34,156 nucleotides of DNA from Archaeoglobales archaeon. GTDB lineage: Archaea; Halobacteriota; Archaeoglobi; Archaeoglobales; Archaeoglobaceae. Positions within the stretch are counted from its first letter, which is position 1; the number at the start of each line of letters is the position of its first letter. Both the position numbers and the translations under genes were made by a program. The notes under the pieces were generated by a model. The model ran no database searches. It saw nothing but the letters and a program-made list of their open reading frames with translations, and had not been told where the DNA came from. This document shows positions 4,802 to 34,156 of this stretch, piece by piece. The DNA lies in assembly GCA_003662995.1 (NCBI GenBank), contig QMZC01000017.1, forward strand, positions 1 through 34,156. Reading direction: 5' to 3'.

Positions 4802-5963
4802 ATGAAAGTTGGTGTTATTGGCGTAGGTTGCTCGAAGTTTGGCGTAAGAGATGTTACAATTCAGGAGCTTGCATATGAGGCTAGTAAGGAGGCTCTATAC
4901 GACGCAGGAATAAACGGAGAGAAAATAGACCTCAGCGTTATTGGATGCGTTGGAACAAGAAACTACGAGCTTATGCCTGCAGTTCCGGTAAACGAATACT
5001 GCGGTTTTGCTGGGAAGGGGCCCTATCAGGGTTGAAGCTGCATGCGCAACTGGAAGCGCTGCAATCTACACAGCATATTCCTCCATAGCATCCGGAATGG
5101 TTGATATCGCAATAGTAATTGGAGTTGAAAAGATGACTGAAGTTGAAACTGCTGTATCTCTTGCTGTTGGAGGCAGAGCTGGCAATTATCTCTGGGAGTT
5201 TCATCAATATGGCACAACATTCCCAGCATACTACGCAATGCACGTATCAGCCCACATGGCAAAGTATGGCACTACAGAGAAGCAGATGGCTCTCGTCGCT
5301 GTCAAAGCTCATAAGAATGCTGCAAAGAATCCTAAGGCACAATTTCAGAAGGAAATTGATGTTGAAACCGTTTTGAATTCAAGAGTTATAGCATATCCGT
5401 TAAAGCTCTTCGATTGCTCACCAATAAGCGACGGTGCTGCGGCAGCAATTCTTGCTTCTAAAGAGAAAATAAAGGAACTTGGAATTGATAACGCTGTATG
5501 GATCGGTGGAATAGGTTACTCATCCGATACATCAAACATGACGAGGAGAGAGAGTTTTGTTGGTTTAAAAGCTTCTGTAAACGCTGCGAAGATGGCTTAC
5601 AAAATGGCGGGAATTGATGAGCCCATTAACTAATTTGACATTGCGACGGTTCACGATTGCTTCACAATCGCAGAAATTATGGGTTATGAGGATCTGGGTT
5701 TTTGCAGAAAGGGTGAAGGCGGGAAATTTATCGAAAACGGAGAGTCAGACTTTGGAGGAAAAATTCCAGTCAACACTTTTGGGGGTTTAAAGGCTAAGGG
5801 ACACCCTTTAGCAGCTACTGGCGTTGCTATGGTCTACGAAGTCGTCAAGCAGTTGAGAGAGGAGGCTGGAAGACTTCAGGTTGATTTGAAGAACTATACT
5901 GGTCTGACTCACAACGTTGGCGGTACTGGACACTTCGCCTGGGTTTTTGTGTTGAGGAGGTGA
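4802..5963 (+). pseudogene. Acetyl-CoA acyltransferase (SCP2-type thiolase), frameshift plus nonsense
   Basis: The three reading frames together give a full-length archaeal thiolase (about 385 residues), which would cleave 3-ketoacyl-CoA with CoA. Frame one runs from ATG 4802. At GGGAAGGGGCCC (about 5011-5023) it shifts into the frame that carries the nucleophile motif EAACATGSAA. That frame ends at TAA 5631-5633, immediately followed in frame by [15 protein letters not shown] with the catalytic His. The end carries [14 protein letters not shown] with the second His. Thus all active-site motifs survive but two independent lesions interrupt the chain. An intact paralogue lies at 21208. The DUF35 gene follows four bases later, the normal pairing. 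Decay is likely; a sequencing error could explain the G-run shift but less easily the TAA. Confidence 0.85.
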
Positions 5964-10429: not shown

Positions 10430-11850
10430 GTAGATGGTTAGTAAGTATCCAATTTATCCTCTTCGTCAGAAACATACAGTCGAGATCCGCACAAATACTC
10501 ATAGGTAGCTGATCGAAGCCTGGAAGACTTTCTTCGATTGTCTAAAGCATCTTGACAACTACAAATTTCACATAAGAGGGTCTAGCTTTTCAGACAGGAA
10601 GAAGTCAAATCATACAGTTGGTTTACGACAAGATGCGATTTAAAGTGTTCGGGGAGAAGTAAGGCTTTCAATTCCAAAGCAGCTGAGAGAGTACCTGAAA
10701 AAGGAGTATGGTTATGACAAGAGGTACCTGTGGGTGGACACTAGTATCGACTTAGCTCAGTATGATGTTAAAGAATGTTCAGATAACTCCTTTGAAGTAT
10801 CAGGCAAAATATTCTAGCATATAGAGATTGTTTACGCTCTAAAGCTAGAACATCCAGAATCAGAGGTAGAGAATGAGAAGGAAAGACTCACTAGCATAGA
10901 CTTCAACAAAGAGAAAGTAGAGAAAATAAATGAGACCAAAAGTAATCTTGACGATAACCCTGAAGAGTTGTTAGAGAAAATAAAAAAAGCAGAAACCCAA
11001 AACTGATAACAACTACGCCATCCAGAACATTTTAAGGCAGATTGAGAAGGGCTTCAGGAACTACTTTAGCAGCTTTTAACAAATAGTTCAACAAGCTTAA
11101 ATCCAAATTACAATCAGAGGCTGACATCCTGAGAAACAAGATTGATATTCTGAAGAACAAAGATGAGGACGTTTCAGAGCTCGAAGAAGAGAAAAGACAG
11201 GTCAGGGAGAAAATAAGGCAACTATGCACACAGAAAGAAGTGAATCGATACTCAATTCCACAGGCAGACGAAGTACTTTTCTCTTTACTTCTACATCACA
11301 GGTCACAGCACAGTCATCATTGGAAAAGGAGCTTTAGAATGCAAACAGAACTGCAATCTAAGCTCCAAAGTAGCAGAAAGGTTCGTTCAAATACCGTCCA
11401 GGAGTTTAATCGATAAGCTTGAATACAAACTTGCATCGCTGGGCATTCAGCTAATAGAGGGTGATGAGGAATACACTTCTCAGGCTATCTGCATAAATGA
11501 TGACATCGTTGAAATCCACAAGAAATTAGAGATAAGAGAATACGATTTCAAACTTGCGGGAGAGAGGGATGAGAAGAAGAGAGGGTTATACAAAGACATA
11601 ATTGTAGTTGACAGTAAGAAGAAAGAAATCGTTTACAATGCAGACAGCAGCGATAGCTTTAACATTTATGAGAGTGAGAACAAAGCTCCCGAGACTGACT
11701 AAATTTTTGCAATTGACATACATGTAAAGAATAGAAAAAGGCATTTGTACCAGAGGTTATTAAAGAAAAAGCAGTCTCTGCAATTTGCAATAACAAGTAA
11801 GATGGAAGCAAAATATCAGCTTTTAGTATAAGAGCTTCACTTGATATCGA
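10430..11850 (+). pseudogene. Decayed TnpB-like (IS200/IS605 OrfB) gene
   Basis: No intact gene lies in this 1.5-kb stretch, but scattered plus-strand frames read as a TnpB-type RNA-guided nuclease. From about 11300: HSTVIIGKGALECKQNCNLS, then RFVQIPSRSLIDKLEYKLAS and GIQLIEGDEEYTSQA, then KRGLYKDIIVV and NADSSDSFNI. These match the family's order VIGKN...WKQ..N, NFVQIP..KLI..L.YK, GI...E.YTS+, +RGLY and NAD.NGA.NI. Upstream frames (10640-11000, 11000-11240) look like degraded N-terminal and helical parts. Many stops and frameshifts interrupt it. No TnpA partner was recognised. Confidence 0.6.
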
Positions 11851-24563: not shown

Positions 24564-26333
24564 ATGTTCTGGAGGAAGAAGAAAAATAGAAGTGATGTAT
24601 TGAAGCTCCTCAGCCCGAAAGCGCATAAGGAGGAGGTGGACCGCTGTATAGCAGCTCCGGAACTTGTTGAGGTTGAGAAGGGGCTGATTTCAATCAACGG
24701 GAGGCCGATGATAATCAGCTACATAGCAGCCTATCCGGCGAAGGTTTACGAGGGATGGATTGCTGATGAACTGGTTTGGAAACCATTCAACATCGATGTT
24801 GTTCAGTTCGTTGAACCGATGCCCGAGGAAAGGATTGTTGCAGAGTTGAACCGCAAAATCACGCAGCTCGAAGCGAAGCTTGCTGAGATGCGCGGAAAGG
24901 GAAGAATCGATACGCAGAGCATAGAGCAGGAGCTTGAATACTTCTACCGCTACAGAGAACTGCTTACAGCGAGGAGGACTAAGCTGTTTACGATGAGCAC
25001 ATACTTTGCGGTATCTGCTGATAGAAACGCTGTTGAGGATGCATTTGTTGATTTCAGCAAGAGGATGAAAGCTAAGGGTGCACAGCTCAAGAGGATTCGC
25101 TACAGAATGCTCGACGCCTTCAAAGCATTCCTGCCTGAGAACAGAGATCTGCTGAAAAGAAAGGTGCTTGTGGACAGCGATGCTGCATCTTCGTGCTTTT
25201 TCTTTAGCTTCCCAAAGATCATGCACGAGAACGGTGTTCTTTATGGATTTGACGCTGCAACGAGGTCGCCTGTTATAATAGACAGGTTCAGGTTTGCAGG
25301 ACACAACGAAGTGGTTGTCGGAAAGATAGGCAGTGGAAAATCTTTCTTCGTCAAGCTCGAGATGCTCCGCTGGATGCTAAATGATTCAAACATAAAAATA
25401 TTCCTCGTAGATCCTCTTGGCGGATTTGCAGATCTGGCAGCAGTTCTTGGAGCTCAGAGAGTTGTTGTTGGAAAGGCAACGATGAATCCGCTTGATATAA
25501 TTGTCCCAGAAGGGGTCTCTGCCCGCGATGTGCTCAGGGAGAAGCTCATGTCACTAATGGAGTTCTTCTCAACATTCTTCGAGGAAGAAATTGGAAGTCC
25601 CGTTGATAAAACAGAGTCTGGTGTTCTCAGGAAGGCAATACTAAAGGCTTACTCGAAGAAGGGTTATGGCAGGGCTATTATAGGAGATGTTATATCCGAG
25701 CTTGAGAATGTTGCTGAGAGCGAAGAAGAGAGAAGTGCGGCTTCAAGGCTGAAGGCAGCCCTTAATGCCTTCACGTCAGAGTTAAGCATGTTCAACGGTC
25801 AGACAGACATTGAGATATACGGAAGAGCAGTTTACTTCGACTTCTCTCAGGTTGAAGGAGTTATTAGAAGTCCGCTCCTTCTCCACGCCGTATTAACTTG
25901 GATCTCTTCTAGGGTTAGGGGGGAGGGCGGAAAGAAGATCGTTGTCATAGATGAGGCTCACTACTTCATGAGGTATAAACAGATAAGGGCGTTTCTGGAG
26001 AGGGAAATTAGACATTCAAGGCATTACAAGGTTGGTTACACGCTTGTAAGTCAGAGCTTTGCCGAATTCGCCGAGCATGAGGAGGGGAAAGTTATGCTGT
26101 CAAATGCAAACATCGTCGTAATTTTCAGGCTGGATTCAATGCCAGAGGAAATCAGGAGGATGCTCGGCATATCTAAATTTGGAGAGCAGTTTGTGAAGGA
26201 AGCTGCTCAGGGAAAAGTGGCAGGCTACTCTTCAGCTTTACTGGTTTTGCCGGGTGAGAACAGCTATCACATAAATGTGCTTGCATCTCCGGCTGAAATA
26301 GAATTCCTTGGCTCTGCCGGGAGGGGAGTCTGA
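24564..26333 (+). CDS. VirB4/TraC-like conjugation ATPase
   Basis: This 589-residue ATPase of the HerA/FtsK superfamily powers assembly and substrate translocation of type IV secretion machines. The N-terminal 240 residues are helical with a coiled-coil segment (about 85-130, rich in Glu and Lys). Walker A is GKIGSGKS at residues 253-260, with VDPLGGFADLAA after it. Walker B is KIVVIDEAHYF with Asp463-Glu464, and the arginine-finger and sensor region is LVSQSFAEF. Length is shorter than bacterial VirB4 (about 800), consistent with the preceding gene carrying the N-terminal part. The start follows GGTGAGG; the stop overlaps the next start by one base (TGATG). Confidence 0.88.
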   Translation: MFWRKKKNRSDVLKLLSPKAHKEEVDRCIAAPELVEVEKGLISINGRPMIISYIAAYPAKVYEGWIADELVWKPFNIDVVQFVEPMPEERIVAELNRKITQLEAKLAEMRGKGRIDTQSIEQELEYFYRYRELLTARRTKLFTMSTYFAVSADRNAVEDAFVDFSKRMKAKGAQLKRIRYRMLDAFKAFLPENRDLLKRKVLVDSDAASSCFFFSFPKIMHENGVLYGFDAATRSPVIIDRFRFAGHNEVVVGKIGSGKSFFVKLEMLRWMLNDSNIKIFLVDPLGGFADLAAVLGAQRVVVGKATMNPLDIIVPEGVSARDVLREKLMSLMEFFSTFFEEEIGSPVDKTESGVLRKAILKAYSKKGYGRAIIGDVISELENVAESEEERSAASRLKAALNAFTSELSMFNGQTDIEIYGRAVYFDFSQVEGVIRSPLLLHAVLTWISSRVRGEGGKKIVVIDEAHYFMRYKQIRAFLEREIRHSRHYKVGYTLVSQSFAEFAEHEEGKVMLSNANIVVIFRLDSMPEEIRRMLGISKFGEQFVKEAAQGKVAGYSSALLVLPGENSYHINVLASPAEIEFLGSAGRGV

Positions 26334-28825
26334 TGAAGTTTTTCAGAAAGAGGCAGAAGCCGTTTGAGGAGGTTCGAAGGGAGATAATTCATATACGACA
26401 TGAGGATGTCATCTTAGCCTCTCACGATGAGCTTTACCTGGGCACATTCAACGATAGCGTGAGAGGGACAATACACGTTTCAATTGCTCTTGAGGACAGA
26501 TTTAGGCACTGCTTGATTGTAGGAGCTACCGGAACGGGAAAGAGCAATCTACTCATCAACATGATTCTTCAAGACATCTATGCTGGCAGAGGGCTTTGCT
26601 TCATAGATCCAAAGGGAGATGCAATCGAAGATGTTCTCATGCGAATTCCGGAATCGAGAGTAAAGGACGTTATACTCATCGATCCAGCAAATTACGACAA
26701 GGTTGTTGGCTTGAACTTCCTCGAACTGCCGAGAAAGGGGCTTTCGGAGATACAGATAAATGCGATGAAAGAAGTGATCGTGGCAGACTTGGTTGCATTG
26801 ATGAGGCAGCAGACTGCGATATGGGGCGAAAGGTTCGGAAGAATATTCGAAACGCTGGTAAGGGCGATTTTAGACTTCAACGAAAGAGTTGGTGAGGAGG
26901 AACAGCTCACATTCCTCGACTTGTACGTTCTGCTTACGGATGAAGAAGTTAGGAACAGGTTTGCGGAGACTGTAAAGGATCCAATAATTAGAGAGTATCT
27001 GCTGAAGGTGAATGAAATGCAGGATGATGTCATGGAACCAGTCATAAGGCGTCTAAACGACTGGGTGATGAACAAGGTTGCAAGGCAGATCGTTGCCCAC
27101 AGAAAATCTTCTTTTGATTTCAGAGAGGCGATAGATACAAACAAGATAATTTTGGTGAGGGTGCCAAAGGGGGAGGTAGGAGTTACAATAATGCAGCTCA
27201 TTGGCACTACAGTTCTATCTAAGATATGGGCTGCTGCAAAGTCAAGGGTGGACATTCCGCAAGAGGACAGAAAACCATTCTTCCTTTACATAGACGAGTT
27301 CGCCAACTTTGCCTTTGAAGGTTCTACTTTTGATGAAATCTTCTCTGAAGCAAGGGCATTTAAGCTTGGGTTGATTGTAGCAACCCAGTACCCCTCCCAA
27401 TTATCTAAAGAAGTTATGGAGGCAGTTTATGGAAACTGCGGAACTGTAATAGCATTCAATCCGCAGAACCCAAAAGATGCGAGTGTTTTGATAAAGAGGT
27501 TTCCTGGTGTGAAGGTTGAGGATTTGCTATCTTTAGGTTTGTATACAGTGATGCTCCGCTTGATGGTGAGGAACGAGCTTACAGATCCGTTCATAATACG
27601 TACATACCCTCCAACCACTCCCCTTAGAAGTAGGGAGGAGATAAAATGGGTTGCAGAGAAATCGCTTGAAATGTACGGAAAGAATAGGATATCTGAACTC
27701 GATCTCTCTGCAAGCTTAAGGAGGATAAAAGAGTTATGCAGGAGCCACAAGGAAGGATACTTTGACGAAATGTTAGAAATCCTGTACAGCCTTGTCATCC
27801 AAGAAAAGAGCATTGACTACAGAAACTTCTCTATTGAAGCAAAAAAGAGGGCTTTGAGTGTGAACGAGAAGCAGTTCTCCGATCTACTCCAGCTCTTTGA
27901 GGATATGGGACTTGTTGAGCTGAGGAGTGATGTTAAGACGGGTAAAATCACACCCATTCCAAAGCCTGAAAGGTTAAAGGCTCAGTTTTGGGATGGAAAG
28001 TTCAACACAATCCTTGCAGGATTTATTGACCACAGGAAGCTTATAGAAAGGGTTTACGAGTACTTCGTTAAGATGGGCTTCATCGTTGAAGTCCCAAAAG
28101 AAGGCAAATATATGCCAGATTTAGTTCTGCGGATGCCTGTGATAGAGCCAGAGTACATGCATGAGTTGGTTCAGGCAAGACAGCTAACTGCTGGGAGAAG
28201 TGCTGTGGTTGAGATAGAGACAACAACTCAGACACGCCCGGGAAGACTTCTGACAAAGCTCAAGAGGGCTTACATGTCGAACATGTTTGCCATCTTTGTA
28301 ACCCTTGGAAGCGGTGATAGTGCAAAAGAATACTACGCTGATGCAAGATACATTATGCATGTACTGACAGATATGAGGGGGAGGAATGGATTCTACAAGA
28401 CTGATGAGGTTGAAAGGGACAGCAGAGGAAGAAAACTGTGGGAGAACAAACATACTGGGCAAATAGCATATGAGGCTAATGGAGCTCTCTACAGCTCCAA
28501 GGGCTTAGAGTGCACGGTAAGCGAAGCTCCAGAAAAAGGTTGGATTGTTAAGAAGAAAGTCTTTGATCCTGAAAAGGAGTTTGGAGGCAGTAAGCCGAGG
28601 CCGGGAGTGGATTTTGCCGTCTTAGTGTTTCCTCCAGACGATTTCGACTTCCCAGTGGTTTCTGTGATTAGAGGTGGAGCCGGCTTCTGGCTCATGACTT
28701 TAGATGGTAGAGAAGTCTCTCAAGAGCTTGAGAGCGCTTTCAGGAGGCGTAGAATGAAAGAAGGAAAGTATGAACAGGTAGGAGAGAGGATAAAGAGGTC
28801 GATGGAGCGCATACTTAGTTCCTAA
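26333..28825 (+). CDS. VirD4/TraG-like coupling ATPase with C-terminal nuclease-like domain
   Basis: The product has 830 residues. Residues about 35-430 form the motor of a type IV coupling protein: Walker A GATGTGKS at 64-71, FIDPKGDAIEDVL after it, Walker B FFLYIDEFAN with Asp321-Glu322, and VATQYPSQL as the sensor region. There is no N-terminal membrane helix, unlike bacterial VirD4. The extra 400 residues hold a winged-helix-like stretch (about 470-560), then YEYFVKMGFIVEVPKEGKY, Asp596 in MPDLVL, Glu627 and Glu629 in AVVEIETTT, and Lys642/Lys644. This spacing resembles a PD-(D/E)XK nuclease core. It probably drives DNA transfer; the nuclease idea is inference. It is translationally coupled to the VirB4-like gene. 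Confidence 0.85.
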   Translation: MKFFRKRQKPFEEVRREIIHIRHEDVILASHDELYLGTFNDSVRGTIHVSIALEDRFRHCLIVGATGTGKSNLLINMILQDIYAGRGLCFIDPKGDAIEDVLMRIPESRVKDVILIDPANYDKVVGLNFLELPRKGLSEIQINAMKEVIVADLVALMRQQTAIWGERFGRIFETLVRAILDFNERVGEEEQLTFLDLYVLLTDEEVRNRFAETVKDPIIREYLLKVNEMQDDVMEPVIRRLNDWVMNKVARQIVAHRKSSFDFREAIDTNKIILVRVPKGEVGVTIMQLIGTTVLSKIWAAAKSRVDIPQEDRKPFFLYIDEFANFAFEGSTFDEIFSEARAFKLGLIVATQYPSQLSKEVMEAVYGNCGTVIAFNPQNPKDASVLIKRFPGVKVEDLLSLGLYTVMLRLMVRNELTDPFIIRTYPPTTPLRSREEIKWVAEKSLEMYGKNRISELDLSASLRRIKELCRSHKEGYFDEMLEILYSLVIQEKSIDYRNFSIEAKKRALSVNEKQFSDLLQLFEDMGLVELRSDVKTGKITPIPKPERLKAQFWDGKFNTILAGFIDHRKLIERVYEYFVKMGFIVEVPKEGKYMPDLVLRMPVIEPEYMHELVQARQLTAGRSAVVEIETTTQTRPGRLLTKLKRAYMSNMFAIFVTLGSGDSAKEYYADARYIMHVLTDMRGRNGFYKTDEVERDSRGRKLWENKHTGQIAYEANGALYSSKGLECTVSEAPEKGWIVKKKVFDPEKEFGGSKPRPGVDFAVLVFPPDDFDFPVVSVIRGGAGFWLMTLDGREVSQELESAFRRRRMKEGKYEQVGERIKRSMERILSS

Positions 28826-30424: not shown

Positions 30425-30964
30425 TTAAATGCAATTCGCTAGTAATTCAGGGTGTTCTTTAATGTAATTCTCTATCCAATTCAAAACACTTTTAACCTTC
30501 TCCTTAACACTGGTTCTCGAAAGCAGTTTTACAGCGTTTATGACTGCTTTCAAGTCATTTTTAATCGCTTTTTTAAGTATTCTGTATAGATCTTCCCTGA
30601 ACTCTTCACTCCTCCAAGATCCATCATAATAGTACTTAATCCTAAGCTTGCACGAACCAGCAGCTGCAAATATCAGAACGATTATCGAGAATTCTTTGGC
30701 AATAGAAAATTCATCTCTAAAATCACATGCTGTTGTTAACTCAATTTTGAGCTTTGGCACGAGTTTATCAAATTCTTTTAAAGCTTTAACGAGTTCTTCA
30801 TCGAGATCAGCCTCTAAAAGCCTATCGTTATGACAGCACGGGCAGTAAACTTCTGCAAGGTCTCCGTAATCGTCTACCTTCTCCTCAAATCCGTCGTAAT
30901 CGTAGTATTCGTGGTAGTACTTTGTATAGCCAAAATGAAAACACTCTCCACAAAATAAAACCAT
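30425..30964 (-). CDS. Unknown protein with CxxCxHFGY zinc-finger-like start and LLANCI tail
   Basis: Not a recognised family; 179 residues. The start at ATG 30964 is set by AGGAGGTGA just upstream, rather than the earlier frame opening at 30991. Near the N-terminus Cys5-x2-Cys8-x-His10-FGY and then Cys41-Pro-Cys43-Cys44-His45 could bind zinc. An acidic helix follows (EADLDEELVKALKEFDKL), then a hydrophobic helix (FSIIVLIFAAAGSCKLRIK) and a long Lys-rich helical C-terminal part. It ends PELLANCI, a hydrophobic tail shared by all five genes of this cluster. It is a diverged paralogue of the protein at 32380-32913: same N-terminal motif, CH pair, hydrophobic-AG helix and length. Confidence 0.75.
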   Translation of the reverse strand: MVLFCGECFHFGYTKYYHEYYDYDGFEEKVDDYGDLAEVYCPCCHNDRLLEADLDEELVKALKEFDKLVPKLKIELTTACDFRDEFSIAKEFSIIVLIFAAAGSCKLRIKYYYDGSWRSEEFREDLYRILKKAIKNDLKAVINAVKLLSRTSVKEKVKSVLNWIENYIKEHPELLANCI

Positions 30965-30975
30965 GTATTCACCTC

Positions 30976-31944
30976 CTAAAGAATATCGCAAAGTAGCTGA
31001 AGACTCACATCGTCAGGGAGCAGTTCAGTTAAATCAAACTTCAAATTTCCAACGTTAGGGAGAATTCTCTCTTTTAGGTAATCCAGAAGCTCTGGATCAT
31101 CCCACTTGAAGAAGGTTCTATCATCGTCATCGGTCCAGTTTACGGGCTCTTCGAACTCGCCACGCTGAATCTTTCTTAGAATAGAATACACTCTGAATAG
31201 ATTTCGGACTTCTAAAACTGCTACACCACTCTTGCAAATGATTACAATTACTTCACTCTCCTTGTCAGACCATTTAAAGATCTTGTAGGTGAATGCGAAT
31301 AGCTTGAACCCGTTAACATCTATAATCTCATTACTATTCTTAAGCTCGCTGTAGAAGTCTGCAATCGGTTTCATTGCCTTCTTAGCCTTTTCAGACTTCT
31401 TAATAGCCATCTTAATGTATTTCTTAGCAGCATCGAAACCCTTATTCTCCAGAATGTGTATAGCTCTCTCTGCTGAAGATTTTGGAGCTTTATACTTCTC
31501 CTGCAGTTCTTTAGCATTCTTATATAGCTCCTCACAACCATTGGGTGGAATTAGAGATCCGTTGCTAAGGTTTATGCTGAGACAATCCTTAAATGGATAC
31601 ACTATACTGTTGAACCGCAGAAAGAGCTTTTTATCGTTACTAAATCTTCTCAACCTGACTTTTGCCTCAAAATCGACTTTGAACTTCTTTCCAGCATAAT
31701 ACGACGCCTGAGCGAGTATTTCGTTAAGCCTGAGAAGAGCGCTCCTGTAGTAATAATCGTCAAAATAATATTCGCTTTCTCGGAGTATTAGCACGCTATC
31801 AGGTGTCAATTCAGCAAAAACGTTATCCCATGAGTAAACGTATTTTGTAGTTCCATCAGCCTCAAAAACTACCTTTTCCACACTGCAGCTAACTTCCTTG
31901 TGGAACATACACGAAATGAGGTCATAATACGGAATGGTCACCAT
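30976..31944 (-). CDS. Unknown 322-residue protein with hydrophobic tail LLCDIL
   Basis: No family recognised. ATG 31944 is chosen because AGGAGGTG lies seven bases before it; the frame itself opens earlier at 31977. The N-terminal third is rich in Tyr and beta-strand pattern (YVYSWDNVFAELTPDSVLIL, SEYYFDDYYYRSALLRLNEIL). A Lys-rich helical stretch (about 165-205, AAKKYIKMAIKKSEKAKKAMK) follows, then a further beta-rich region (GFKLFAFTYKIFKWSD, EVIVIICKSGVAVLEV), and an acidic end NWTDDDDRTFFKWDDPELL. It ends SLQLLCDIL. The translation start region (ggaggtg-tatac-ATG) is almost identical to that of the following gene at 30425-30964, which lies 11 bases downstream. Confidence 0.75.
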   Translation of the reverse strand: MVTIPYYDLISCMFHKEVSCSVEKVVFEADGTTKYVYSWDNVFAELTPDSVLILRESEYYFDDYYYRSALLRLNEILAQASYYAGKKFKVDFEAKVRLRRFSNDKKLFLRFNSIVYPFKDCLSINLSNGSLIPPNGCEELYKNAKELQEKYKAPKSSAERAIHILENKGFDAAKKYIKMAIKKSEKAKKAMKPIADFYSELKNSNEIIDVNGFKLFAFTYKIFKWSDKESEVIVIICKSGVAVLEVRNLFRVYSILRKIQRGEFEEPVNWTDDDDRTFFKWDDPELLDYLKERILPNVGNLKFDLTELLPDDVSLQLLCDIL

Positions 31945-31973
31945 GTATACACCTCCTAATTTTACAATACTAA

Positions 31974-32354
31974 TCAAATGAGGTTTGCTAGAAGTTCCGC
32001 TTCTAAGTCCAGCTCACTCAAAGCTTCTTCCAATCCTGAAACTCCTTCGTAAGCTTCCGAGAAAAATTCGATAACATCTATTGGAAATTCTAAGTAGGGG
32101 ACATATGGGGCTACTGCAGCATCTTTCAGCTCTTCTAAGTTTTTATACGCTGCTGTGAACACGTATTTGCTGTCAAAATTTGCTACGAAGAAAAATATCT
32201 CTTTGTTATTTTCAGCTATGCCGACGACCTTTCTCATCTCCTTGAGAATCTTTATTCTTGTTATTTTTGCTCTTTCCCGCTTTTCTAAATATTCAAGCCT
32301 TTTAACAAGCTCCTTCAAAACATCGCCCTCGCTTTTACACCAAGTTGTTCCCAT
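31974..32354 (-). CDS. Unknown 126-residue protein with hydrophobic tail LLANLI
   Basis: No family recognised. The N-terminal third is a strongly charged helix, possibly coiled coil (VLKELVKRLEYLEKRERAKI); a beta-like middle follows (KEIFFFVANFDSKYVFTAAY), then an acidic helical end (SGLEEALSELDLEAELLANLI is the last part). The ATG at 32354 has GGAGGTG eight bases upstream. It lies 25 bases after the gene at 32380 and 29 bases before that at 30976, on the same strand. The last six residues LLANLI match the LLANCI tail of the protein at 30425-30964. Confidence 0.7.
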   Translation of the reverse strand: MGTTWCKSEGDVLKELVKRLEYLEKRERAKITRIKILKEMRKVVGIAENNKEIFFFVANFDSKYVFTAAYKNLEELKDAAVAPYVPYLEFPIDVIEFFSEAYEGVSGLEEALSELDLEAELLANLI

Positions 32355-32379
32355 AACAGCACCTCCAAAAAAGATTCGA

Positions 32380-32913
32380 TCAGACTAACACTGCCAGCAC
32401 AAGCCGCTCAATCTCACCGAGGTATTTCTTAAAACTTTCATCAATCTGAACCTTAGATTTTACTACTTCTACTGCTTCTACAATGTGCTTTGCACGAGAT
32501 CTATCTTCACTGACTATCTTGGCGAAATGCTCCTTCAGAACATCTCTTGTAAGTTTGTCCAATTCATATCCGTCCTTTTTAGCTGTTCTTCCAGCATCTA
32601 CATCATACACATTGATTACTCCTTTAACCCATTTTATCGAGAACTTCCCAGCTACGCTCAACAAGAGTGCTACAGCTGAGGCTGTTTCGCCGCAAAACTC
32701 CTTTTCAACATCCTTGAGGAGTTCTACTACTTCTTCGTTGCATTCAGCATGGACAAGTACTCCTCCTTCACCTTCTTTATGGCAGAGTCTCTCTTTTTCG
32801 TCTCCAGGGTAATCCTTGAGGTATTCTCCAAATGCATCATAGTAAAATACATCCTCAGCCACAGCATCATAGCCAAAATGCAAACATCTTGCGCAGAAAC
32901 AAATCTCTTCCAT
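32380..32913 (-). CDS. Unknown protein with CxxCxHFGY zinc-finger-like start and LAVLV tail
   Basis: The product has 177 residues. Cys7-x2-Cys10-x-His12-FGY at the N-terminus and Cys44-His45, with His55 and Cys58 following, are potential zinc ligands and align with the protein at 30425. Next come an acidic helix (NEEVVELLKDVEKEF) and a hydrophobic helix (TASAVALLLSVAGKFSIKW) with the same AG-x-x-x-x-K pattern as its paralogue, then a helical C-terminal half ending RLVLAVLV. The ATG at 32913 follows GAGGTGG. It is paralogous but clearly diverged, so duplication is old. Function unknown; a zinc-binding adaptor or nucleic-acid binder is only a guess. Confidence 0.75.
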   Translation of the reverse strand: MEEICFCARCLHFGYDAVAEDVFYYDAFGEYLKDYPGDEKERLCHKEGEGGVLVHAECNEEVVELLKDVEKEFCGETASAVALLLSVAGKFSIKWVKGVINVYDVDAGRTAKKDGYELDKLTRDVLKEHFAKIVSEDRSRAKHIVEAVEVVKSKVQIDESFKKYLGEIERLVLAVLV

Positions 32914-32930
32914 CTAAACCACCTCTAAAA

Positions 32931-32952
32931 TTTCTTTAAAGAAAAAAATAAA
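32931..32952 (-). terminator. Palindrome and T run between two cluster genes
   Basis: The perfect palindrome TTTCTTTAAAGAAA (32931-32944) overlaps a T-rich run on the minus strand just after the stop of the gene at 32954. It could end or attenuate transcription there, or its CTTTAAAG core could act as a TATA-like promoter for the downstream four genes. The sequence alone does not decide. Confidence 0.3.
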
Positions 32953-32953
32953 G

Positions 32954-34156
32954 TCAGATAAGCACAGCGAGGGTCAAGAGCCCTGTCACATTTGGTGCAT
33001 AGTTTGCCAGAGCTTTCCACTCCCAGTCCCTAAACATGTCCTTCCTTATCTCAACCCATCTTTCAATAATCTCCCTTAGCTCTTCATTTGTTATCTTGCA
33101 ACCATCTGCTGTTCTTACAGAATAACCCTTCTCAGCGTGGTGGATTAGTAATCCCATCTCACTAAACAAGTTCTTCAGCCTTATCAGTCCTATAAGCCCC
33201 TCATCACCAGCCTTTTCTATCGTTGATTCTGGAATGCACGGATTAGGATAAACGACATCTTCGAGGGAGATGCAGCAATCGTCAACAGTCACCTCGTACT
33301 TCCCCAGCCTTAGCCTGCCGTACTTCTTAACTACGCTCTTAAGTATTGGTTTTGCATCCTCCTCCAGCTCTTCAACCGACTTGCCTTTTTCAACTCCGGC
33401 ATACTTGCACGCCAGACTGGTCAAATCTTTTAGCATGTTTGAGTGTCTAAGTACATTATATTCGTTGAATATTATGAATAGAAGCTGCTCCAGATCACTT
33501 CTGAATCTGCTCGAGTTAAATCTTGACAAGAACCACTTCACAAAATCCTCAACAGCGAAGAGTTCCTTAGCATACCCTGTATTTGTAACATCCAGAAGGG
33601 CATAAACTTCCCCGACAATCTTTCTTACCACAGGAAGTAGCGGGATGAGATTGCTTGGAGCTTCTACGAGTACGTAATTCTTCTCTATTTGCTTGAGAGT
33701 TTTAACCGTATAGCCGTCTGTTACAAGCGTCGTTTCCTTAACAAACTCCAGCCACTCTTCGTATGTCGTGACGAGACCTCCAGCGATTTCTCTCAGCTCC
33801 TTGTAGATTTTCTTTGAACCTACAACGAGATATCCGTAAGAAAAACCTTCCTCTGGTACATCAGTTACCTTTTCAGTGTAGATGATATGTTTACCTTCCA
33901 GTACTTCGTTAAGTAGTTCTTCTTTAGTGTGGTAGTGCGGCCCATCTCTTTCGAAATTACCAATTCTGTATACTTTGATCCTTTTTACAGTCTTCTCTTT
34001 ACTCAAATTGACCTCCTTAACACCATTCTTCTCCAAGAACTCGATGATTGCAGGATTGTCAACATAGACTGCATAAATCCCAGCATCTTCTAAATCTAAT
34101 TCCTTCTTTGAGTTTGGTCTCCTCTTCAAATAACCCGTCTTTCTCCCAGTCGCAGC
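32954..34156 (-). CDS. Unknown protein, 5' end outside the window, tail LLTLAVLI
   Basis: At least 400 residues are seen; the frame stays open to the window edge, so the start is not known (TTG 34129 is only an internal possibility). No family recognised. Early residues are basic (TGRKTGYLKRRPNSKKELDL), then YAVYVDNPAIIEFLEKNGVKEV, IKVYRIGNFERDGPHYHTKEE, and a strand GYLVVGSKKIYKEL. The middle is helical (AVEDFVKWFLSRFNSSRFRSD), followed by an all-alpha region with a few Cys (VTVDDCCISLEDVVYPNPC). It ends VTGLLTLAVLI, nearly the same as the LVLAVLV end of the next gene 40 bases downstream. It is the upstream member of the five-gene cluster seen here. Confidence 0.7.
   Translation of the reverse strand, partial: AATGRKTGYLKRRPNSKKELDLEDAGIYAVYVDNPAIIEFLEKNGVKEVNLSKEKTVKRIKVYRIGNFERDGPHYHTKEELLNEVLEGKHIIYTEKVTDVPEEGFSYGYLVVGSKKIYKELREIAGGLVTTYEEWLEFVKETTLVTDGYTVKTLKQIEKNYVLVEAPSNLIPLLPVVRKIVGEVYALLDVTNTGYAKELFAVEDFVKWFLSRFNSSRFRSDLEQLLFIIFNEYNVLRHSNMLKDLTSLACKYAGVEKGKSVEELEEDAKPILKSVVKKYGRLRLGKYEVTVDDCCISLEDVVYPNPCIPESTIEKAGDEGLIGLIRLKNLFSEMGLLIHHAEKGYSVRTADGCKITNEELREIIERWVEIRKDMFRDWEWKALANYAPNVTGLLTLAVLI

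Follow-up and report, generated by a model that had tools for sequence, protein, structure and literature searches.

Five Adjacent Genes with a Similar C-Terminal End

The window analysed here is the whole of contig QMZC01000017.1, 34,156 nucleotides from an Archaeoglobales archaeon (assembly GCA_003662995.1). This source genome is referred to as G000 and Ferroglobus placidus as G022, contigs being written genome:contig, so that the window is G000:C17. Its right end carries five genes on the minus strand whose products finish in a similar short hydrophobic tail. The first in the direction of transcription encodes an rIIA-like GHKL protein with a HATPase_c_3 domain, of which the 3' part, the last 400 codons, occupies positions 32954–34156. 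It ends in GLLTLAVLI (C-terminus ...NVTGLLTLAVLI), with the LLTLAVLI-stop codons at 32954–32980. A 177-amino-acid (aa) Zn-ribbon-like protein follows at 32380–32913 (tail ...EIERLVLAVLV; LVLAVLV-stop codons at 32380–32403), then a 126-aa protein with no family assigned at 31974–32354 (...LEAELLANLI; ELLANLI-stop at 31974–31997), a 322-aa protein at 30976–31944 (...VSLQLLCDIL; QLLCDIL-stop at 30976–30999) and a 179-aa Zn-ribbon-like protein at 30425–30964 (...KEHPELLANCI; ELLANCI-stop at 30425–30448). The genes are arranged head to tail with short gaps, and GGAGGTG-like sites precede most of those following the first one, so that the five look like one operon. The locus runs off the contig end, which cuts the 5' part of the GHKL gene; the remainder of this gene sits on contig C115, and full-length orthologues of 813–814 aa are present in L012 and L014.

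The initial annotation had summarized these ends as L-[AC]-x-[LCI]-[ILV]-COOH. The five C-termini had been read correctly and 5/5 matched; the neighbouring thioredoxin, radical SAM and small membrane protein genes did lack the tail, and the five proteins were mutually unrelated once the tails were trimmed, except for the 179/177 pair (37% identity over 71 aa). None of the window proteins could be placed convincingly in a family by searches of Pfam, NCBIfam and PADLOC; the 322-aa protein showed a match to CARF3 (1e-4) that spanned 85 residues. The codons for ELLANCI and ELLANLI differed at 5/7 positions, which ruled out a DNA repeat as the source of the tails and indicates that selection works on the protein.

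Tail Pattern and Significance

About 30% of background open reading frames (ORFs) terminate in L, I or V. Hydrophobic ends are thus common by themselves and the whole pattern is what needs testing; as the motif had been fitted post hoc, held-out tests were decisive. The background consisted of 1400 ORFs from 1.28 Mb sampled (707 from G000 and 693 from F. placidus). The strict motif was found in a single one of them, a 169-aa protein of G000:C21 ending in ...EEIGQELLAQLI, and this protein is itself encoded within the locus, in its upstream portion. The initial annotation had pointed to equally many such ends elsewhere in the genome as evidence against a special tail, and no comparable number was found. 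A profile built from the five window tails was then applied blind to F. placidus, counting the ORFs that scored above the profile threshold: 10/48 did so in the related cluster, which spans 453.6–486 kb, as compared with 11/693 elsewhere (Fisher p = 1e-7). With the two homologues of training proteins removed, the count was 8/46 (p = 5.5e-6). In a leave-one-out analysis of 21 tails, part of which had been chosen by eye, each was among the highest-scoring 2.1% when ranked against 487 background ORFs. The later, unseen contig G019:C135 contained a further tailed gene, encoding 112 aa and ending in VKKVLLANLI, between the DUF6744 and MoxR-1 genes.

The tail is thus very probably a genuine shared signal at one type of locus. 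That it arose from chance or compositional bias, as the frequency of L/I/V ends in archaeal proteins and the post hoc definition of the motif might suggest, is extremely improbable given the background rate of 1/1400, the conservation in distant orthologues described below and the blind validation, which by itself already refutes it.

The consensus of the last ten residues was h-K/R-K/R-x-h-L-A-x-L-[LI]-COOH, in fixed register to the stop codon. In a set of 25 tails partly picked by eye, position -5 was L in 23/25, -4 was A in 13/25 and -1 was L, I, V or M in 25/25. Position -10 was V, L or I, positions -9 and -8 were mostly K or R in F. placidus, -6 was hydrophobic and -2 was L or I. The mean hydropathy of the last five residues was 2.3 in the tails and -0.3 in the background. 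Net charge was 0 to -3 for tails of the window type and mostly 0 to +3 for those of the F. placidus type. The mean hydrophobic moment was not raised, so that the term amphipathic helix draws only on the hydrophobic positions -10, -6, -5, -2 and -1. The AF2 model of the 177-aa protein showed a confident C-terminal helix at residues 159–176, whereas that of the GHKL protein was poor (mean pLDDT 63); the tail is therefore predicted to be helical where a good model exists. Comparison of the 177-aa model with the PDB using Foldseek returned nothing significant.

Tailed Families and Their Conservation

Approximately 15 unrelated families carried the tail when proteins were compared with the last 12 residues removed and the 112-aa protein was added. 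They include the GHKL protein, the Zn-ribbon proteins of 179, 177, 168, 242 and 149 aa, and the proteins of 322, 126, 223, 169 and 112 aa; in F. placidus, those designated 153/84, 415, 217, 307, 324, 211, 305, 151, 63 and 166 were tailed. The G000 orthologue of the 112-aa protein was frameshifted (L241:5273–5509, on G000:C21), its tail being readable in another frame.

The tail persisted at considerable evolutionary distances. GHKL orthologues with 24–58% identity kept it, in variants such as LITLAELI, LALAALL, IALSTLL and LALSFL, as did the pairs 307/309 (35% identity), 324/333 (47%) and 211/199 (34%, with a weaker tail). The 126-aa orthologues in G003 and G019, 83–84% identical, kept ELLANLI; the 322-aa orthologue in G003 (79% identity) ended in ...VRLQLLCDIL, and the 179-aa protein was 42% identical to a 242-aa protein of the F. 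placidus cluster ending in NHPEVLADLM. In G003, the gene for the 179-aa protein stopped early, without the tail. Among the orthologue tails of G000, G003 and G019, 26 synonymous and 10 amino-acid differences were counted over 96 aligned codons; judged by these counts, the tail codons are under purifying selection. The initial annotation had regarded homologues without the tail as a point against it, and the outcome was mostly in favour of the tail: distant homologues of several families keep it, but Zn-ribbon paralogues without it also exist.

The GHKL protein deserves a closer description. Its N-terminus holds a GHKL ATPase domain (HATPase_c_3 match, 5e-7), and its matches to the rIIA PHROG profiles (1.2e-9 and 5.2e-9) covered residues 44–120, that is, the ATPase domain only; the PHROG alignment showed no rIIA homology past this domain. 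It resembles the rIIA-like GHKL proteins of phage T4 in this domain and in overall size, whereas the remainder is unrelated in sequence and an rIIB partner was not found.

Organization and Distribution of the Locus

The window holds the 3' end of a bigger locus, broken by the contig end, with two MoxR/vWA pairs lying upstream. The gene order in G000 was DUF6744, 112 (broken), MoxR-1, 169 (tail), vWA-1, 131, 196, MoxR-2, vWA-2, 168 and 223 (tails), GHKL (tail), and 177, 126, 322 and 179 (tails). It was assembled from contigs C21, C166, C115 and C17, with the syntenic G019:C51 as guide, and the join is inferred; the 168-aa gene is cut in G000 by a contig end before its terminus, and its tail was read in G019. 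Contig C21 carries the 169-, 196- and 131-aa genes of the locus together with another vWA gene, another MoxR gene and a DUF6744 gene. On G000:C115 (L062:1872–7107), ABC-transporter-like and CooC-like genes separate the 223 gene from the GHKL gene, which are adjoining in G019; they represent either an insertion or an assembly join.

Among 57 genomes of the order, the combination of GHKL, MoxR-2, vWA-2 and tails was found in G000, G019, G022 and G002, with a degraded remnant in G003. G019 has two copies of the locus, split across contigs. The loci form one lineage of archaeal mobile-element-like DNA, hosted by a few heat-loving archaea of the Archaeoglobales. Alignments of the GHKL and vWA-1 proteins against viral contigs revealed no relatives. 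Remnants of a broken GHKL C-terminus (tail LLTLTMLI) and of a VirD4 C-terminus adjoin a tRNA-Cys gene in two genomes, at L068:10075–10284 (G009:C25) and in L067 near 11520–11740 (G003:C22), which suggests a past insertion there.

A Candidate Reader of the Tail

MoxR-1, vWA-1, MoxR-2, vWA-2 and DUF6744 were tail-less in every copy seen, and MoxR-2 and vWA-2 were the tail-less genes that best tracked the tails. G002 possesses MoxR-2/vWA-2, GHKL and tails but not vWA-1, whereas G011 possesses a relative of vWA-1 and has neither vWA-2, GHKL nor tails; this pattern favours MoxR-2/vWA-2 as the reader. The two genes are adjacent in G000:C166, G019:C51 and G002. The initial annotation had placed a receptor, as probable, upstream and beyond the window. 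Plausible candidates do lie there, MoxR-2 and vWA-2 being on C166 and syntenic in G019:C51; that they are the actual reader is what we infer.

MoxR-2 matched PHROG 1297 (3.9e-77) and vWA-2 matched PHROG 1314 (6.5e-76). vWA-2 also matched Pfam DUF2201_N (5e-28) and DUF2201 (4e-23), and all five copies aligned contained the motif HExxHxxxxH (HEVSHIAFRH or HELLHYLLxH) together with intact residues (DxSxS, T, D) of the metal ion-dependent adhesion site (MIDAS). It is predicted to unite an HExxH metallopeptidase and a vWA domain in a single protein; no solved relative was found by sequence. PHROG 1314, a family labelled HNH endonuclease, matches this DUF2201 metallopeptidase-vWA protein, and the label, which recurs in many phage records, looks wrong.

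We tentatively propose, from the sequence data, that the tail is a client tag for the MoxR-2/vWA-2 machine encoded in the same locus. In this model, the end-anchored tail would be bound by the MoxR-2 AAA+ ATPase or by vWA-2, with vWA-2 or the MoxR ring as the docking surface for its free carboxylate and hydrophobic face, and the docked clients would then be remodelled, assembled or clipped in an ATP-driven reaction. Clients would be the GHKL ATPase, Zn-ribbon proteins and small accessory proteins, so that one machine could serve many unrelated proteins. In the NorQ/NorD system, the C-terminus of the vWA protein touches the post-sensor-1 loop of the MoxR protein, and the MIDAS is a proposed substrate site (PMC13036017). 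The carboxylate at the C-terminus of C3b serves as a chelating ligand for the MIDAS metal in the vWA domain of factor B in the complement convertases (PMC12847986); this eukaryotic contact offers a model for a vWA domain reading a free C-terminus. Both are mechanistic precedents with no homology claimed. An elaboration that we consider rather doubtful is a tag language, in which the carboxylate would sit on the MIDAS metal and the leucine helix in a groove, tag and reader co-diverging so that each machine would be specific to its element. The neutral-to-acidic tags of the window and the mostly basic ones of F. placidus would then be two tag types.

Several observations weigh against the client tag. 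MoxR-vWA loci of bacteria, of phages and on viral contigs held only 4 tail-like ends among 1863 ORFs, and phage or plasmid loci with DUF6744-MoxR-vWA or DUF2201 showed no convincing tails. Related MoxR/DUF2201 pairs of bacteria, phages and plasmids therefore work without tails, and the tag would be a lineage-specific feature; similarly, a scan of genome contigs with vWA-2 recovered mostly tail-less bacterial MoxR-vWA loci. Only five genomes of a single order carry the locus. The tail is missing in two Zn-ribbon paralogues (169 aa in G002 and 191 aa in G019:C6), and the degraded G003 locus retains tails with MoxR-2 as a fragment only. Finally, the tail charge differs by type, so that one conserved docking surface is not proven.

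The tail could instead be an assembly tag whose receptor is another protein of the element, for example the MoxR-1/vWA-1/DUF6744 unit or a scaffold, with the tails forming amphipathic helices that pack in the manner of a coiled coil or of MIM1-type docking helices. The spacing of the hydrophobic positions suits such a helix, the 177-aa model ends in a helix of high confidence, and MoxR-1, vWA-1 and DUF6744 share the locus in G000, G019 and G022. We nevertheless consider an assembly tag unlikely, since G002 has tails without vWA-1, G011 has a vWA-1 relative without tails, and no tails accompany the DUF6744-MoxR-vWA units on a Moorella phage and an Alicyclobacillus plasmid. The tail could also act as a degron that marks the element proteins for a protease of host or element (PAN-proteasome, Lon or vWA-2 itself, the metallopeptidase), in the manner of ssrA with a non-polar end. 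C-terminal degrons are typically non-polar and end-anchored, and a predicted metallopeptidase is encoded in the locus. A spacing fixed back to -10 and basic residues at -9 and -8 exceed what a simple non-polar degron needs, however, and a signal for a host protease would be expected on unrelated unstable host proteins too, but outside the locus such ends are nearly absent; a degron is quite improbable.

The high hydropathy of the last five residues and the K/R that precede them in the F. placidus set would fit a membrane-targeting amphipathic helix, but the window-type tails are neutral to negative, the hydrophobic moment is not raised, and a membrane role would not need an exact register to the carboxylate; we regard this as very doubtful. 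It is highly improbable that the tail is a type IV secretion signal for the VirD4-like coupling protein at 26333–28825, for export in a conjugation-like transfer. Type IV substrates often have C-terminal signals, a distance of 1.6 kb separates the tail cluster from VirB4/VirD4-like genes in the window, and VirD4 homologues occur in G000, G003, G019 and G022 and, distantly, in G002. Yet the VirD4 loci of G008, G003:C16, G019:C80/C91 and G022 (near 387 kb) gave no convincing tails, with 3 weak matches among 255 nearby ORFs, a check that covered nearby ORFs and leaves room for substrates encoded elsewhere in those genomes, and the VirD4 and tail modules are non-adjacent in G003 and G019.

Relation to Known Systems

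The MoxR-2/vWA-2 pair has the same two adjacent components as the known MoxR AAA+/vWA pairs, NorQ-NorD, RavA-ViaA, CbbQ-CbbO and the jumbo-phage MoxR with its metallopeptidase-vWA partner. We know of no such pair with a client family sharing a C-terminal tag. The phage version consists of a vWA domain fused to an N-terminal metallopeptidase (PMC7824862). The MoxR-vWA conflict systems (Kaur et al. 2020) likewise have MoxR and vWA at their core and associated genes that vary, and MoxR-1 of F. placidus matched Pfam bpMoxR (7.4e-62); here, GHKL and Zn-ribbon clients stand in place of the effectors described there. A term search of Kaur et al. 2020 found neither the tail motif nor DUF2201. Encapsulin cargo peptides are likewise short C-terminal peptides common to unrelated cargo, but the tail pattern differs and sits on far more proteins. 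Encapsulin-like cargo loading, suggested in the initial annotation, found no support: a Pfam scan of cluster proteins, which did not comprise every ORF, brought up no HK97-fold shell gene. As far as the literature searched shows, a shared C-terminal tag on these loci is apparently undescribed.

Prokaryotes and the viruses that infect them commonly encode MoxR-vWA machines, but the choice of clients by these machines is poorly understood. About 15 unrelated families with one end-anchored peptide would offer a ready-made recognition element: a 10-residue peptide would make client selection directly testable, the tails would define the client list of a system for which no report was found in the literature searched, and the tail could serve as a portable tag for heat-stable proteins.

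Other Features

The tail-less DUF6744-MoxR-vWA trios of the Moorella thermoacetica phage and the Alicyclobacillus plasmid (L271 and L273) consist of the same gene kinds as MoxR-1/vWA-1. In the window, the segment 23161–28825 carries pilin-like, 280-aa, VirB4-like and VirD4-like genes and resembles a conjugation or DNA-import module; the VirD4 copies are 65–72% identical in G003, G008, G019 and G022. Further to the left, at 5007–5963, a thiolase-like gene is apparently split into two ORFs of 208 and 94 aa, possibly by a frameshift.

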